The notes under the pieces are model-generated. The model did not search any database. It had not been told where the DNA came from and worked only from the letters and a program-made list of their open reading frames with translations. Positions 5,810 to 13,650 of a DNA stretch of 64,000 nt are shown here, piece by piece. Position 1 is the stretch's first letter. Each line of letters starts with the position of its first letter. The stretch comes from Microvirga lenta (GTDB taxonomy: Bacteria > Pseudomonadota > Alphaproteobacteria > Rhizobiales > Beijerinckiaceae): assembly GCF_020532555.1 (NCBI RefSeq), contig NZ_JAJBBR010000009.1, positions 186,001 to 250,000 on the forward strand. Direction: 5' to 3'. A program made the position numbers and the translations under genes.

Positions 5810-5993
5810 CGCTGAAAGTCCGTGAAAACCCCGTTGCCGACAAGCTGGAGTTTAACTGAAAGTTCCGGCAACTCCCACATGAAAAACCAATTTATCTGCG
5901 GCCAAGCTGAAACTCAGCTCCTGGGGTCCCGTTCAATAACGACACATTTGTAACGACGTGGGCCGTTTGAGGTCTCGCGACTGGGACCTTCCG

Positions 5994-6218
5994 ATGACTG
6001 TCAGAAGCCATAACGGCTCAGAGCCGGACAGCGAGCGCATTGCAGTTCTCGACATCACCGACCCGGTGCTTTCCGGCATGATCGGGTCGCGCCTGCGCGC
6101 CATGTATGACGATCTTCTCAACGAACCGGTTCCCGAGCGCCTTCTCGAAGTGCTGCAGCGCTGTGACCGGTCCAGCAATCCCCCACCGGAAAGAGGAGAG
6201 TTGCGGAATGGGACGTAG
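5994..6218 (+). CDS. NepR-like anti-sigma factor
   Basis: A 74-residue protein whose centre (LRAMYDDLLNEPVPERLLEVL) is the signature of NepR, the anti-sigma factor that binds EcfG in the alphaproteobacterial general stress response and is titrated away by phosphorylated PhyR. It is neither next to a PhyR (sigma-like plus receiver) nor next to an ecfG gene. Instead it overlaps by 11 bases the start of a stand-alone receiver gene. It may therefore be a second, divergent NepR copy. An in-frame GTG at 5958 would add 12 residues. The N-terminal 30 residues and the C-terminal tail look disordered, as in known NepR proteins. Confidence 0.8.
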   Translation: MTVRSHNGSEPDSERIAVLDITDPVLSGMIGSRLRAMYDDLLNEPVPERLLEVLQRCDRSSNPPPERGELRNGT

Positions 6219-6606
6219 TATCAAACCCGCACGCGTTGCGTTGATCGTCGAGGACGACGTCGAGGTTCGCGAACTGGCGGCCGCCCTTCTCGAGGAGACC
6301 GATCTTCAGGTCACCGAAGCGTCCAGCGCCGAGGAGGCCCTGGATTATCTGCGCCACCATGCGGAAGACGTCGCATTCCTGTTCGCCGATGTCCGCCTGC
6401 CTTGCCTGATGAACGGCGTGGACCTGGCGCGCACGGTGCGCCTGAAATGGCCCTGGGTCAGGACGGTTCTCACCTCCGGGCAGCCTCTGGCGGACACGTC
6501 CGAGGACATGCCCCGCGATGTCCGCTTCATGCCGAAGCCCTGGAGGGCCCTGGAGGTTCTCATGGAGGCCGAGCGGGCCGCGCAGGCCGGCAGCAGGCTT
6601 TCGTAG
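6208..6606 (+). CDS. single-domain response regulator
   Basis: A 132-residue receiver domain with no output domain. Seen: the acidic pair in VEDDVE, phosphoacceptor D61 (FADVRLP), T89 (LTSG) and K110 (MPKPW). Such proteins either relay phosphate between kinases and PhyR-like regulators or act by protein contact. The start ATG follows GAGGAG and lies inside the end of the NepR-like gene, so the two are translationally coupled. This pairing suggests that the receiver acts in the general stress pathway. The role is inferred from context only. Confidence 0.88.
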   Translation: MGRSIKPARVALIVEDDVEVRELAAALLEETDLQVTEASSAEEALDYLRHHAEDVAFLFADVRLPCLMNGVDLARTVRLKWPWVRTVLTSGQPLADTSEDMPRDVRFMPKPWRALEVLMEAERAAQAGSRLS

Positions 6607-6689: not shown

Positions 6690-8960
6690 TCACGTCCTCG
6701 CGGATGGACGGGCGCGCATGTCGCTCGCCATCAGGCCCGCGATCCTGTCCTCCGGCAGGGCCTTGGCGAACAGGTGGCCCTGCAGCTCCATGCATCCCGT
6801 GGTTTCCAGGAACCGCCTCTGGTCCTCCGTCTCCACGCCCTCGGCCGTCACGGTCAGGCCGATCGTCTGGCCGAGGGTCGTAATGGCCTTGATGATGGCG
6901 GCCGAGTCCGCGTCGGCGGTGTGGCCCAGATGCTGCACGAAGGAACGGTCGATCTTGATCTTGTCGACCTCGTAGCGGCGCAGATAGCTCAGGCTCGAAT
7001 GCCCACTTCCGAAATCGTCGAGCGCGATCCGAAAGCCGGAGCTGCGCAGCTTCCGGAGCGCATCGCGGGTCAGCTTGTCCCCCAGCAGCACGTTTTCGGT
7101 CACTTCCAGCTCGATCTTCCGCGGGTCGGCCCCGCACTCGCGGACGATCTTCACGATGCGTTCCGCAAATCCGTTGGAGCGGAACTGGGCGGGGGACAGG
7201 TTGATGGCGATGAACAGGTTGGGCCAGCGCTTGGAGGTCGCGCAGACGTGCCGCAGCACCATGTCCCCCAGAGGGACGATCAGCCCCGTATCCTCCGCGA
7301 TGGGCAGGAACTGATCCGGCGCGATCAGCCCCCGCGTCGGGTGCTGCCACCGGATCAGCGCCTCGAGACCGATCACCGGCCGGCCGGCGGCAGCCACCTG
7401 GGGCTGATAATGGACCTTCAGGGAATCGCCGGTCTCCAGCGCCTCGCGCAGTTCCTCCTCGATCGTGGCACGCCGCTTCACGTCCTCGTCCATGCAGAGT
7501 TCGAAATAGCGATGGCAGCCCCGCCCGTCGTTCTTGGCATGATAAAGCGCGATGTCGGCTTTCCGGAGCAGGTCGATGCGGTCGACGCCCTCGTCCGGCA
7601 TCATGACGATTCCGATGCTGACGCCCACGAAGGCCTGGCTGCCGAGCAGGTCGAAGGGCTGATGGACCGCATCGAAGATGCGTGAGCACAGGACCTCGAC
7701 ATCGGTTCTGCCGCCGATGTCGAACAGGAGGATGGCGAACTCGTCGCCGCCGAGGCGGGCCACCGTGTCGTGGGTGCGGACCAAACCGGACAACCTGCCG
7801 GCGAGCTCGCGAATGAGGTTGTCGCCGGCCTGATGCCCGAGGGTGTCGTTGACGTTCTTGAAGCGGTCGAGATCGAGCATCAGGAGAGCGGATTTCTCGC
7901 CGCCGGCGCTGCGGGACAGGGCCCGGTCGAGGCGATCGTCGAACAGGGCCCGGTTGGGCAGCCCGGTCAGCACATCGTGGAAGGCGAGGTGCTGGGCATG
8001 GGCCTCGCTCGCGCGAAGCTCGACCACCGTGGATTCCAGCCGCGCCATGGAGGAACGCAGCGAGCGGACGAGCCAGCCCATCACGACGATCATGAGGGCG
8101 CAGACGAGCGCGGTGCTGGGCCCGATCACCTTCAGGATCTTCGAGCCGGGCAATTCCGGCTTCCAGATGAAGTACCCGATGGTATCGCCGTAGTCGGATT
8201 TGAGCGGAACGGAGACCTCGCCGGGCCGGGGCAGGTTGGAGGACGAAAAGTGCAGGCCCTCGATCAGGTTGCGTTCGGCCAGCTGCTTGGGAAACGTGTC
8301 GTCGAGAAAGCGGACGCTGACGAGGAGAGGCTCGGTGCCGGGTTCCTGCGGAATGTCATCCGATTCCCTCACGATCTTCATCACGCTCACGGCGGCGGGG
8401 CGCCCGAGCAGCTGAATCACGTGAGCGTCGTGGACCGCTTTGCCCGTCGTGAGATAGGAGCTGCCCGCTCGCTCGTGACCGTGCCCTCCATGCTCATCCG
8501 CGGTTTGGCGAATGTCGCGGATAAAGCTGTTCAGGCTGGGGCGAATGAGACCGAACTCGCTGACGGGAACGCGCTCCCCGCCGATCATCGCGTCGACCGG
8601 CTCATTCCGCTCGTTCAGGATATAGACCTGATCCTGGCCGAAGGTGCGATGCAGCCAGATGCCCATATTGGCATCCAGCCAGTCGAAATCGAGCTGCGGT
8701 TCGCGAAGCTTCTCCACCGCATCGTCCCAGACCGCCACCATCTCCTGCTGTTGCGCCAGCTCGCTGACGACGGCCTGAATGCTGCGCTCCGTCGTGCGGA
8801 TCTGCCGCTCGACGGAAACGTCGTTGCTCTGGCGCACGGCCCAGAACAGGGAGAAGGCGGCCAGAACGATTGCAACCAGCGTGACGAGGCCGACCGGCAG
8901 TAGAATCCTTGTGGGAGAACGCCACCCGGGACGGGTGGTCGAATAAACCTGGCGTAACAC
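6690..8960 (-). CDS. membrane CHASE4-GGDEF-EAL cyclic-di-GMP protein
   Basis: A 756-residue bifunctional c-di-GMP enzyme. Order: an N-terminal membrane span (about 19-41), a periplasmic sensor of about 230 residues of CHASE4 type (contains QQEMVAVWDDAVEKL), a second span near 278-300, then GGDEF (LGGDEFA near residue 402, catalytic motif intact) and EAL (GLEALIRW near 531, intact). Either or both activities are possible. The DxLTGLPNR and KIDRSFV signatures are also present. It is transcribed alone, convergent with the receiver gene. The periplasmic ligand cannot be read from the sequence. Confidence 0.95.
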   Translation of the reverse strand: MLRQVYSTTRPGWRSPTRILLPVGLVTLVAIVLAAFSLFWAVRQSNDVSVERQIRTTERSIQAVVSELAQQQEMVAVWDDAVEKLREPQLDFDWLDANMGIWLHRTFGQDQVYILNERNEPVDAMIGGERVPVSEFGLIRPSLNSFIRDIRQTADEHGGHGHERAGSSYLTTGKAVHDAHVIQLLGRPAAVSVMKIVRESDDIPQEPGTEPLLVSVRFLDDTFPKQLAERNLIEGLHFSSSNLPRPGEVSVPLKSDYGDTIGYFIWKPELPGSKILKVIGPSTALVCALMIVVMGWLVRSLRSSMARLESTVVELRASEAHAQHLAFHDVLTGLPNRALFDDRLDRALSRSAGGEKSALLMLDLDRFKNVNDTLGHQAGDNLIRELAGRLSGLVRTHDTVARLGGDEFAILLFDIGGRTDVEVLCSRIFDAVHQPFDLLGSQAFVGVSIGIVMMPDEGVDRIDLLRKADIALYHAKNDGRGCHRYFELCMDEDVKRRATIEEELREALETGDSLKVHYQPQVAAAGRPVIGLEALIRWQHPTRGLIAPDQFLPIAEDTGLIVPLGDMVLRHVCATSKRWPNLFIAINLSPAQFRSNGFAERIVKIVRECGADPRKIELEVTENVLLGDKLTRDALRKLRSSGFRIALDDFGSGHSSLSYLRRYEVDKIKIDRSFVQHLGHTADADSAAIIKAITTLGQTIGLTVTAEGVETEDQRRFLETTGCMELQGHLFAKALPEDRIAGLMASDMRARPSART

Positions 8961-9303
8961 TGGAGCCCCGCAGCAATTAGTGTTTTCCCTGTTCTACCGG
9001 CAGAGAATTAACAATTGTTGTTTTGCTTGGATCTTCATAGGTCTTCTTGGCTTCCGCCTAGTTTTGAGAAGGGTGGCCGCAGGGGAATGTCCCGGGTCCT
9101 GTTCCTCCAGAGCTGTTGCCGTGGGCTCCTCCCGCCGCGACAACACCTTGGTGATGCGGGTTTTTCCGGTCCGCCCATAAGCCTTGGGACAGCAGCTCCG
9201 ACGTTGGCATCGCCGGGGCAAGTAATCGCAAGAAGCGCTCGTCATCATTTGAGGGATAGACTTGGCTCGAAAGGCGGAGCCTCAACTTAGCCGTACCGGC
9301 GAA
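8961..9303. other. intergenic region upstream of the GGDEF-EAL gene
   Basis: About 340 bases without a supportable gene. It has an AT-rich patch at 8974-9022 with the perfect palindrome AACAATTGTT near 9009-9018, which may be part of the promoter or an operator for the minus-strand gene that starts at 8960. The rest is GC-rich and shows nothing clear. Confidence 0.4.
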
Positions 9304-9328
9304 GGAACGAACCCCGACCCTGGCCGTT
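9304..9328 (+). promoter_or_regulatory. EcfG-type (general stress) promoter
   Basis: GGAAC at 9304-9308, 16 bases, then CGTT at 9325-9328. This fits the GGAAC-N16/17-CGTT consensus of the alphaproteobacterial stress sigma factor EcfG. The -10 element lies 33 bases before the ATG of the 24-residue membrane peptide at 9362, a usual distance. Confidence 0.75.
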
Positions 9329-9361
9329 GGGCTCAGGTGTTCACTGTTGGAGACTATCGTC

Positions 9362-9436
9362 ATGAACAACATCATCTGGATTATCGGAGCCATTGTCGTC
9401 GTCCTTGCGATCCTTTCGTTCCTCGGATTGAGGTAA
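9362..9436 (+). CDS. 24-residue single-span membrane peptide
   Basis: A tiny frame coding for MNNIIWIIGAIVVVLAILSF followed by LGLR. It is almost one hydrophobic helix with a basic C-terminus, so a single-span inner-membrane peptide. From memory, very similar 24-25-residue peptides are frequent in rhizobia and relatives; their function is unknown to me. GGAG stands about nine bases before the ATG, and an EcfG-type promoter is placed just upstream, so expression under general stress is likely. It is too short for most gene finders. Confidence 0.7.
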   Translation: MNNIIWIIGAIVVVLAILSFLGLR

Positions 9437-9654
9437 CGGTCCGGACAAGCAGGCAGGAGCCTGGTTCCGGTAGAGATCCTCACGGCGACAGGTCACCGTC
9501 TCGGAAGGGGCGGTGTCCCCCGTCTCACGGCGGCCCGCCGAGGGCTCGGGTGACCACGGACCTGCCTTGAAATCGGCACCGCTCGGAAGCGTCGGGGTAG
9601 CGTCTGGAGCGGATGCGTTCCTGTTTTTCCACCTCGCCTCCCACGGATCGAGTG

Positions 9655-10617
9655 ATGGAAAACCTCCTCCGTATTTTGCCGTCCAGTCCTCCATCGACGC
9701 TGATGCGGTACGGACTGACCACGGTCATCGTCCTCGTCTTCTTCCTGATCCGTCTCGGCCTCCCGTTGGGCGGCGGATATCCGTTCCTGATCTTCTTCCC
9801 GGCCGTCTTTCTTTCGTCGATCCTGTTCGACCGCGGCTCCGGCTTCCTGGCGACCTTCCTCACCACGGTCCTGGCGGTCTACTTCTTCATCGAGCCGCGC
9901 TACACCCTCGTTCCGCCGGTCGAGCAGGTTCCTCCCCTCGTTCTCTACGTGCTCATCAGCTGCGGCATCGCCGTGCTCAGCGAAGCCTTGCGCCGGGCGC
10001 TCGAACGGGCACAGAGGGCCGAGCGCGAGAAGGATCTCCTGTTCCAGGAGCTGGCGCACCGGACCAAGAACAACCTGCAGATCATCGCCTCCGTGCTGGC
10101 CCTCCAGGCCCGGAGCGTCGAGGATCCCGAGGTCAAGCGGATCTTCGACGCCGCCGTCACCCGCGTCAGGGTCATCGCCAATGCCCATTCCCAGCTTCAG
10201 CCGAGCGGCGACAGATCCATGGTGGACATGCGGTCCTATCTCGGCGATCTCTGCCGGGATCTCGGCGACAGCCTGCGCGATGTCAGGCCCGTGGCCGTGA
10301 GGGTCGAGGCCGATCCCATTGAGCTGAGCACCGAAACCGCCGTGCCGATCGGCCTCATCGTGAACGAGCTCGTCACGAACGCCTTCAAGTATGCATTCCC
10401 GGACAGTCAGGATGGGGTGGTCATCGTCACCTTCCGCCGAAGCGAACCCGGCACCATCATGCTCGTGGTGGAGGATAACGGCGTCGGGTGCCCCCTAGAG
10501 GTCAAGGAAGGGCTCGGTTCCCGCCTTGTCCGGCTGCTGGTCCAGCAGGTCGGCGGCACCATTGCTCGCGAGGCGGGAAATCCCGGCTGCCGGGTTGTGG
10601 CATCGATCTCCGTCTGA
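9655..10617 (+). CDS. membrane histidine kinase, DUF4118 + HisKA_2 + HATPase_c
   Basis: A 320-residue kinase. Residues about 10-110 hold several membrane spans of the DUF4118 (KdpD-like) type. The phosphorylation site is H135 in ELAHRTKNNLQ, the HisKA_2 form. An N-box (NELVTNAFKYAF) and a G-box (VEDNGVG) follow. HisKA_2/HWE kinases often feed PhyR-like regulators in this order of bacteria, and the NepR-like and receiver genes are 3 kb away. The start is uncertain: ATG 9655 is listed, GTG 9652 is equally possible, and an upstream in-frame ATG at 9613 would add 14 residues. No receiver is encoded next to it. Confidence 0.9.
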   Translation: MENLLRILPSSPPSTLMRYGLTTVIVLVFFLIRLGLPLGGGYPFLIFFPAVFLSSILFDRGSGFLATFLTTVLAVYFFIEPRYTLVPPVEQVPPLVLYVLISCGIAVLSEALRRALERAQRAEREKDLLFQELAHRTKNNLQIIASVLALQARSVEDPEVKRIFDAAVTRVRVIANAHSQLQPSGDRSMVDMRSYLGDLCRDLGDSLRDVRPVAVRVEADPIELSTETAVPIGLIVNELVTNAFKYAFPDSQDGVVIVTFRRSEPGTIMLVVEDNGVGCPLEVKEGLGSRLVRLLVQQVGGTIAREAGNPGCRVVASISV

Positions 10618-10914
10618 TCGCCGGAGATGGTGCTTGTCGGGAGGAGCGGGTCGCGTGGGGGAGAGGTATCCGACCTATGGACGAATATGTAATTTTATAA
10701 TATAGGAGATGAAATGGCGCCTGCCGGAAAGTGGTTTGTTTCCTGAGAACCTTGTCCTCCTACGTTGCAGCGCAATAATCCCTTTTGCATAACGGGAATG
10801 TGATTGAGCTACCTCTTTCGTTTATTTCGCGACTGAGCTTGGCTGTTTTAACGTTTCTATCAGGCTTTGGTATTAAAGTTTCATCTTGGTTGCGTGGACT
10901 TGTCAGGGGGGACA
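10618..10914. other. AT-rich intergenic region
   Basis: About 300 bases that are clearly richer in A+T than the rest of the window (for example ATGTAATTTTATAATATAGG at 10687-10706). It probably holds the promoter of the gene at 10915. Two very short frames (7 and 10 codons) occur but lack support. Confidence 0.4.
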
Positions 10915-11817: not shown

Positions 11818-12228
11818 ATGCCCATGAATCCGGTTGCACCTCTGGACTCCCAGGCTTCTGCAGGCCGTCAGCACCCCGTCGCCCTCATCGTCGAGGACGA
11901 GATGCTGGTCCGCATGGTTCTCGTCGATACGCTGATGGACGACGGTTTCGAGGTGATCGAGGCCACCAGCGCGGACGAGGCGCTGCTCGCGCTCAACCGC
12001 CGGGACGATGTGGATCTGGTCATCAGCGACGTGGAGATGCCGGGCTCGATCAACGGCTTCACGCTCGCCCGGCGCGTCGCCGAGGAGCGTCCGAACATCG
12101 GCATCATCATCGTGTCGGGGCGTGCCAGTCCGCAACAGGGCGACCTTCCCGAAGGCGCGAACTTCATCGCCAAGCCCTTCTATCCCGACACCGTCCTCAC
12201 GACCGCGAATGCGATGATCGGGCGCTAG
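11818..12228 (+). CDS. single-domain response regulator
   Basis: A 136-residue receiver domain without output domain. Phosphoacceptor D71 sits in VISDVEMPG, the acidic pair in VEDEMLV, the Ser in IIVSGRA and the Lys in IAKPF. The start is one of two close ATGs (11818 or 11824), neither with a strong ribosome binding site. It lies between two DUF6894 genes and 0.5 kb before an HWE kinase, a plausible phospho-donor. It resembles the receiver at 6208 only in the fold, not in detail. Confidence 0.88.
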   Translation: MPMNPVAPLDSQASAGRQHPVALIVEDEMLVRMVLVDTLMDDGFEVIEATSADEALLALNRRDDVDLVISDVEMPGSINGFTLARRVAEERPNIGIIIVSGRASPQQGDLPEGANFIAKPFYPDTVLTTANAMIGR

Positions 12229-12723: not shown

Positions 12724-13650
12724 ATGACAATCCTGCTGCCCTTGGGAATTGATGGGAATTCCCGACTGATCGATCTCGCACAGCTTACTGTCGAGAATGC
12801 CGCCGATTCCATCTTCGTGATGGACGTGGAAGGGCGTACGGTTTTCGCCAATCCGGCCGCGGAACGCACCTTCGGCTGGTCGAGAGAGGAACTCGTCGGC
12901 AAAATTCTTCACGACGTCGTGCACCACCACTATCCCGATGGGCGGCCCTTTCCCATGATGGAATGTCCTCTCGGACAGGTGTTCCAGGCCCAAAGGCGGC
13001 TGGAGAAGCACGAGGACGTGTTCTTCCACCGCGATGGCACGCCGATCCATGTGGCCTGTTCCAACGCGCCCGTGATGCGGAACGGCGAGATGGTGGGCGC
13101 CGTGCTGATCGCGGTGGACATTACGGAGCGCAAGCGCGGCGAGGAGCGTCAGCGGCTGCTGACGAACGAGCTGAACCATCGTGTGAAGAACACCCTGGCG
13201 ACCGTGCAGGCCATCGTGTCCCAGACCTTGCGCAGCTCTCCGTCCAAGGACGATGCCCAGATCGCCGTCGAGCAACGCCTGAAGGCGCTCGCACGCGCTC
13301 ACGACGTGCTCACCCGCGAACATTGGCAAGGCGCAGGTCTTCATGACATCGTGGCCCTCGCCATCGCCATGGCCCTCCAGGAACTCGCGACGAACGCGAC
13401 GAAATACGGCGCTCTTTCCAGCGCGGAGGGCGAGGTGCACCTGACCTGGTCCGTGACCGAAACATCGGGGGCGCCACGTCTCCAGCTCCAGTGGGAGGAG
13501 AGGGGCGGCCCGCCCGTGAGCCCGCCGCTCACCCGCGGCTTCGGCACCCGCCTGATCGAGCGAAGCCTCGCCCATGATCTCGATGGAAGTGCCGATATCG
13601 ACTTCGCCCCGACCGGCGTCGTCTGCCGGTTCGAGGCTCCGCTGGGCTAG
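12724..13650 (+). CDS. PAS-HWE histidine kinase with shortened catalytic domain
   Basis: A 308-residue cytoplasmic kinase. A PAS domain covers about residues 18-140. The H-box has H152 (NELNHRVKNTL). The N-box starts at E220 (ELATNATKYGAL), and the HWE signature is W257-E258-E259. The G-box region is GFGTRLIERSL. The distance from H152 to the N-box is only 68 residues, whereas typical HWE kinases have about 105-110. The segment missing is the one that forms the first strands of the HATPase domain: LHDIVA runs straight into AIAMALQELATN. Whether the protein still binds ATP is open. It lies near a receiver gene (11818), a possible partner. Confidence 0.88.
   Translation: MTILLPLGIDGNSRLIDLAQLTVENAADSIFVMDVEGRTVFANPAAERTFGWSREELVGKILHDVVHHHYPDGRPFPMMECPLGQVFQAQRRLEKHEDVFFHRDGTPIHVACSNAPVMRNGEMVGAVLIAVDITERKRGEERQRLLTNELNHRVKNTLATVQAIVSQTLRSSPSKDDAQIAVEQRLKALARAHDVLTREHWQGAGLHDIVALAIAMALQELATNATKYGALSSAEGEVHLTWSVTETSGAPRLQLQWEERGGPPVSPPLTRGFGTRLIERSLAHDLDGSADIDFAPTGVVCRFEAPLG

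Follow-up and report, generated by a model that had tools for sequence, protein, structure and literature searches.

The locus at positions 5994–6606 of the 64-kb stretch of Microvirga lenta DNA analysed here (the window) raises the question of what a NepR-like anti-sigma factor does when its gene overlaps that of a single-domain receiver and lies away from ecfG and phyR. NepR paralogues are common in Rhizobiales. The role of such paralogues in general is described as mostly unknown (PMC4814048), and a recurrent partner could indicate how at least some of them are controlled.

A NepR paralogue and its receiver

The gene at 5994–6218 (forward strand) encodes 74 aa with the NepR two-helix motif, IGSRLRAMYDDLLNEPVPERLLEVL, and matches the Pfam NepR family PF18557 at E 2.9e-11 and 43.2 bits, against a curated cut-off of 25.7. 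Its nearest PDB chain is NepR 3t0y_B (E 2.5e-5), followed by 5uxx and 4qic at E about 0.1. The start ATG is common to the window gene and its two orthologues, all NepR motif residues are retained in the alignment, and the helix-1 leucine and aromatic residue, L34 and Y38, are kept in all three; the L and Y/F of LxxxY/F are reported to be required for the function of Sphingomonas melonis NepR and NepR2 (PMC6599016). Across these three genomes the gene is under constraint, with NG86 dN/dS of 0.28 and 0.44 in two pairs and saturation in the third, and identity is 42–49% for NepR versus 80–87% for the receiver. Judged by its sequence, this ORF is a true NepR paralogue, set apart from ecfG and phyR.

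The receiver gene (6208–6606, forward strand, 132 aa) begins with an ATG at 6208–6210 ahead of the nepR stop at 6216–6218, which bears out the 11-base overlap described in the initial annotation. A putative ribosome-binding site for it, AGGAG, can be read within nepR at 6194–6198 on the same strand. The claim that this receiver lacks the sigma-like domain of PhyR also holds: PF00072 (49.1 bits) is the only Pfam match to the ORF at E ≤ 1, and no sigma-like domain precedes the receiver as it would in a PhyR. Constraint on the receiver is tight (NG86 dN/dS 0.08–0.12 in three pairs from three genomes). Its phosphorylation site, E15, D16, D61, T89 and K110, is complete in all 81 aligned family members, and T89-S90-G91 is invariant among 20 aligned receivers. 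The motif PFxFATG(G/Y) of the FATGUY single-domain regulators MrrA and SdrG (PMC5964349) is absent from the window receiver, which reads TVLTSG instead, and the folds nearest to it in structure comparison are ordinary receivers. Both genes are intact, overlapping ORFs that are co-inherited in Microvirga.

The pair had been proposed as a possible second branch of the general stress pathway, or else as a phosphorelay module that would act on PhyR; the proposal presupposes further NepR, ecfG and phyR genes in the same genome. These are present. The 4.5-Mb genome, in which the window lies on contig C28, holds six NepRs above the Pfam cut-off, EcfG-type matches and, on C27, the site of the canonical set, a single clear match to PhyR (74.8 bits). 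Each of the five other NepRs (on C27, C26, C11 and, at 148 kb and 101 kb, C12) is accompanied by a sequence that matches the sigma-like family of PhyR/EcfG, 0.3–0.5 kb downstream on the same strand or, at C12:101 kb, in the same reading frame. Since EcfG adjoins or is fused to all five, and no EcfG match occurs in the 64-kb window, the window NepR stands alone among the six in having a receiver at the usual place of the sigma factor. Two of the other sites are of interest in themselves. On C26, a second nepR-ecfG set is flanked by a single-domain receiver and an HWE kinase (L009:5938–7615 and 7963–10731). On C12 near 100.6 kb (L012:7428–8237), NepR and EcfG share one frame of 269 aa, the NepR part scoring 34.5 bits, above the cut-off; modelled from its single sequence, this protein gave a poor structure (mean pLDDT 54.3). 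Methylobacterium extorquens is known to have NepR-like extensions on EcfG (PMC4814048).

The two kinases named as possible phosphodonors proved real in Pfam: a DUF4118-HisKA_2 kinase at 9613–10617 (forward strand) and a PAS-HWE kinase at 12724–13650, both with a phospho-acceptor histidine that reads H-R-x-K-N. The former is a candidate phosphodonor with a syntenic, 87% identical counterpart in M. subterranea (L229:11395–12357), whereas the HWE kinase is not syntenic there. As the genome contains 23 HWE_HK Pfam matches and the HWE kinase at 12724 lacks synteny, closeness says little, and a kinase–receiver link drawn from closeness was rejected on account of those 23 matches. A second single-domain receiver at 11827–12228 is missing, together with the HWE kinase, at the matching place in M. 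subterranea.

Conservation of the pair and its promoters in Microvirga

Relatives of the receiver at E ≤ 1e-20 occur in 40 of 48 Microvirga genomes. Among the 30 best of these receivers, 27 have a NepR within 1.5 kb according to a NepR model built in this analysis. The three exceptions (L055, L061 and L081) shrink on inspection: genome G014 carries a convergent NepR with an in-frame stop and G013 a NepR 2.2 kb off, leaving G015. In a control of 28 more distant receivers drawn from the class, a NepR within 1.5 kb was found in none.

The pair takes two layouts. In the window genome, M. subterranea and M. aerophila, nepR overlaps the receiver; elsewhere the two genes converge some 0.5 kb apart, with an ORF of 124–147 aa between them at the three loci examined. 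Convergent NepRs occur in 32/48 genomes and face the orthologous receiver in every one of the 32, across a gap of 507–2247 bases (median 541). With orthology of the receiver defined as a match at E ≤ 1e-45, a threshold set after the list had been seen and reached in 37 genomes, a NepR neighbour is present in 35, overlapping in 3 and convergent in 32; G015 and G021 have the orthologous receiver without a NepR neighbour. The 11 remaining genomes have neither a convergent NepR nor a full-length match to the window NepR. Co-occurrence of receiver and NepR over the 48 genomes gives a Fisher p of 3e-9 with shared descent ignored, orthologous loci not being independent events. The average number of NepRs, as a raw count at any genome size, is 2.4 where no receiver matched at E ≤ 1e-20 and 6.25 in the remaining genomes. 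The convergent nepR at G014:C65 and that at G032:C1 each contain one in-frame TAG inside the alignment.

A putative EcfG-like promoter, GAAAC-N16-CGTT, lies at 5909–5933 on the forward strand, 60 bases upstream of the nepR start codon. It is conserved in the two orthologues, where the -35 and -10 elements are kept and the spacer is changed, and the same holds across six aligned tandem loci. The pattern occurs twice in the window versus 1.18 matches expected, so that a lone site is within chance. For the wider comparison a relaxed form, G[GAC]AAC-N16/17-[CGT]GTT, was used, chosen after the window site had been seen; it occurs in 8.6% of random 310-base segments of these loci, the sites themselves included, and single sites therefore mean little. 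The relaxed promoter precedes tandem nepR in 8/8 cases (0.14 expected from shuffling), convergent nepR in 25/25, mostly as GCAAC-N16-CGTT (0.47 expected), and 28 of 34 non-tandem Microvirga receivers, mostly as GAAAC-N16-CGTT (0.66 expected). Canonical Microvirga phyR-nepR loci carry the strict GGAAC-N16/17-CGTT in 24/24, which indicates that Microvirga uses the published consensus; this strict form was found in none of the tandem nepR (0/8), convergent nepR or receiver sets. GCAAC is reported among the two commonest -35 forms in Sphingopyxis (PMC7083833). From these promoter patterns, the Microvirga nepR and receiver genes are likely to be made from EcfG-like promoters and to act as feedback.

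A search for a nepR relic in the leader of convergent-type receivers gave alignment z values of 1.4 to 5.7 over 30 pairs, too weak to claim one. A strict GGAAC-N16-CGTT site at 9304–9328 of the window precedes a 24-aa hydrophobic ORF at about 9362–9436; M. subterranea conserves both (L229:11087, N17), and the product is possibly a small membrane protein of the stress regulon.

Fusions and other layouts outside Microvirga

Named genomes were scanned with the receiver alignment and the best 80 loci were taken. Within 2.5 kb of the receiver, NepR was fused in frame at 14 of them, tandem at 6, convergent at 25, otherwise placed at 1 and absent at 34. All 14 fusions belong to Methylobacterium or Methylorubrum species and consist of a single chain in which about 20–25 linker residues connect a NepR-like segment to a receiver. 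A profile of 16 fusions finds a full-length, single-frame match in 90 of 111 genomes (rows counted by hand) of one genus, taken to be Methylobacterium on the strength of the named fusions, and partial matches in the other 21.

The NepR segment of the fusions is diverged, scoring 17.8–25.2 bits in six, with one of 11 scored fusions above the Pfam cut-off of 25.7. Profile comparison nonetheless supports its kinship with NepR: hhalign gives 95.8% (E 7.3e-9) against canonical NepR and 93.8% (E 1.7e-7) against the window NepR family, versus 0.2% in the control against receivers. The L and Y/F of LxxxY/F are invariant in 16/16 fused segments. In an AlphaFold model of one fusion (pTM 0.61) the receiver is confident (pLDDT >90), the NepR helices lie near 70 and the linker falls below 50; docking of NepR on the receiver is not seen in this model, and fold comparison matched the receiver part only.

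In the receiver tree, one branch unites the 14 fusions (SH-aLRT 91) and a second holds 41 Microvirga receivers (98); a third group consists of 20 stand-alone Methylobacterium receivers. Two of these last are flanked by glutamine amidotransferase-like and rpsU-like genes, named by eye. As the 34 loci of 80 without a nearby NepR include this clade of 20, the receiver can evidently work alone. A scan of 385 genomes of the class, in which at most the best 8 candidates per genome were scored, gave matches at E ≤ 1e-12 in 94, and among the matches listed the single hit spanning both parts falls in the Methylobacterium genus. Of 397 genomes from the order, just the window genome and 8 Methylobacterium-genus genomes contain relatives of the receiver at E ≤ 1e-25, and the 12 plasmid records with relatives are all below 60% identity. 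A Rhizobiales bacterium outside both Microvirga and Methylobacterium (L144) carries NepR in tandem, at 34.4 bits.

The single locus with another layout, from M. calopogonii (L131), has a NepR-like ORF overlapping the receiver, followed by nepR and ecfG. That ORF has no Pfam NepR match and was assigned from its place and motif. The whole forms a stress island within 2.5 kb (L131:1388–3731), in the order FATG-type receiver, unknown ORF, NepR-like ORF, family receiver, NepR and EcfG. In M. terricola (L156) and M. platani (L157), the receiver carries an N-terminal segment in which the second half alone of a NepR-like motif is found (in L156, SLPDRLQELV); this may be a fusion that has decayed.

Identity of the fusion with META1p2700 of M. 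extorquens was considered and not adopted: an EcfG-type promoter is reported for META1p2700, whereas the relaxed EcfG-like pattern was found in 0/14 fusions. The fusion maps to 2.65–2.93 Mb in complete Methylorubrum-like genomes, in agreement with the gene number of META1p2700. For that protein, PhyR co-immunoprecipitation was negative and overexpression gave no phenotype according to PMC4814048; should it be the fusion, the negative result with PhyR would count against a PhyR-binding role.

A proposed phosphorylation-tuned NepR and other readings

The fusion and the gene overlap support a physical coupling of NepR and receiver, and recurrent receiver pairing in two genera together with EcfG-like promoters ties this NepR gene to the general stress response; a separate branch of that response, or a transfer of phosphate from the receiver to PhyR, would go further than these findings. 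It is tempting to hypothesize that the two make up a NepR gated by phosphorylation, PhyR in mirror image, with a single chain in Methylobacterium and two overlapping or convergent genes in Microvirga; this exact form is offered tentatively. The broader proposal, that a phosphorylation-tuned NepR exerts feedback on the PhyR/NepR/EcfG switch and probably does so through PhyR, to which Sphingomonas NepR2 binds, has about an even chance of being right. Here an HWE/HisKA_2 kinase would phosphorylate the receiver, whose state would alter how freely the NepR helices bind; these helices would in turn engage the sigma-like domain of PhyR, or an EcfG, and the response would be dampened or reset. Several observations weigh against the proposal: the AlphaFold model shows no docking, EcfG-like promoters are missing from the 14 fusions and strict ones from the Microvirga genes, the receiver is found with no NepR close by at 34 of 80 loci and in G015 and G021, and one of 11 scored fusions exceeds the Pfam cut-off. 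Binding, phosphorylation and the direction of effect are steps that we infer from known parts: NepR2 of S. melonis exerts negative feedback and has PhyR as a binding partner (PMC6599016), two of three M. extorquens NepR paralogues bind PhyR and none of the three bound EcfG in two-hybrid tests (PMC4814048), and HWE/HisKA_2 kinases with single-domain receivers drive or drain the general stress pathway (PMC5964349).

The strongest alternative has the two proteins acting apart, with NepR as a plain PhyR antagonist of the NepR2 type and the receiver acting as sink or relay for phosphate from HWE kinases in the manner of LovR or MrrA; the operon would be shared since each gene supplies feedback to a single response. 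Antagonists and receivers of both kinds exist (PMC6599016, PMC5964349), most Microvirga pairs are convergent with an EcfG-like promoter for each gene, and stand-alone receivers occur in Methylobacterium; the prevalence of the one-chain fusion in that genus nevertheless favours physical coupling, and the receiver has LTSG in place of the FATG of MrrA and SdrG, which leaves separate action rather unlikely. Less probable still, and doubtful on present evidence, is an ordinary anti-sigma factor that inhibits an EcfG paralogue encoded elsewhere, the receiver substituting for PhyR and pulling NepR off sigma. The intact NepR motif, the several EcfG-type matches in the genome and the nepR-ecfG pair adjoining the receiver in M. 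calopogonii would suit it, but the receiver has no sigma-like domain with which to mimic EcfG, and the two-hybrid pattern of the M. extorquens paralogues, with PhyR bound and EcfG not (PMC4814048), points the other way. That a drifting NepR paralogue merely lies beside an unrelated receiver is highly improbable, for the fast divergence of NepR and the occurrence of each gene without the other are outweighed by co-occurrence and neighbourhood over 48 genomes, the fusion, purifying selection and the lack of NepR beside the distant receivers, counts that disfavour chance.

A phosphorylation-tuned NepR would be filed as a variant of the PhyR-NepR-EcfG partner switch, and it has several relatives. 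It resembles NepR2 of S. melonis and META2p0735 of M. extorquens in being a NepR paralogue outside the principal anti-sigma function; these are EcfG-regulated, PhyR-binding and act in negative feedback, but a receiver partner is described for neither in the parts of PMC6599016 and PMC4814048 consulted. Like PhyR, with its sigma-like domain and receiver, it links a receiver with an element of the pathway's partner switch, yet that element is a NepR-like helix pair and not a sigma mimic, so that the logic is reversed. The NepR-like N-terminal extension of M. extorquens EcfG paralogues, which blocks binding of NepR to EcfG1, is likewise a NepR-like segment fused to a pathway protein, the partner there being a sigma factor and here a receiver (PMC4814048). 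MrrA/SdrG and LovR are stand-alone receivers that HWE/HisKA_2 kinases serve in the general stress response; unlike MrrA/SdrG the window receiver has no FATG motif, and the sections of PMC5964349 consulted describe none of the three with a NepR gene or fusion. Within the open-access literature searched, subscription papers lying outside its scope, no NepR-receiver protein or operon is described, including in the portions of PMC8999054, PMC8103513 and PMC12148442 covered.

Taken together, gene order and fusion suggest a second signal wired directly into the stress response. If the phosphorylation-gated NepR is real, a second set of kinases would fix the amount of free NepR-like peptide, resetting or vetoing the general stress response. 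A conserved NepR-receiver module, testable in Methylobacterium, would give many NepR paralogues a defined input and would show that phosphorylation controls the partner switch on the anti-sigma side too.
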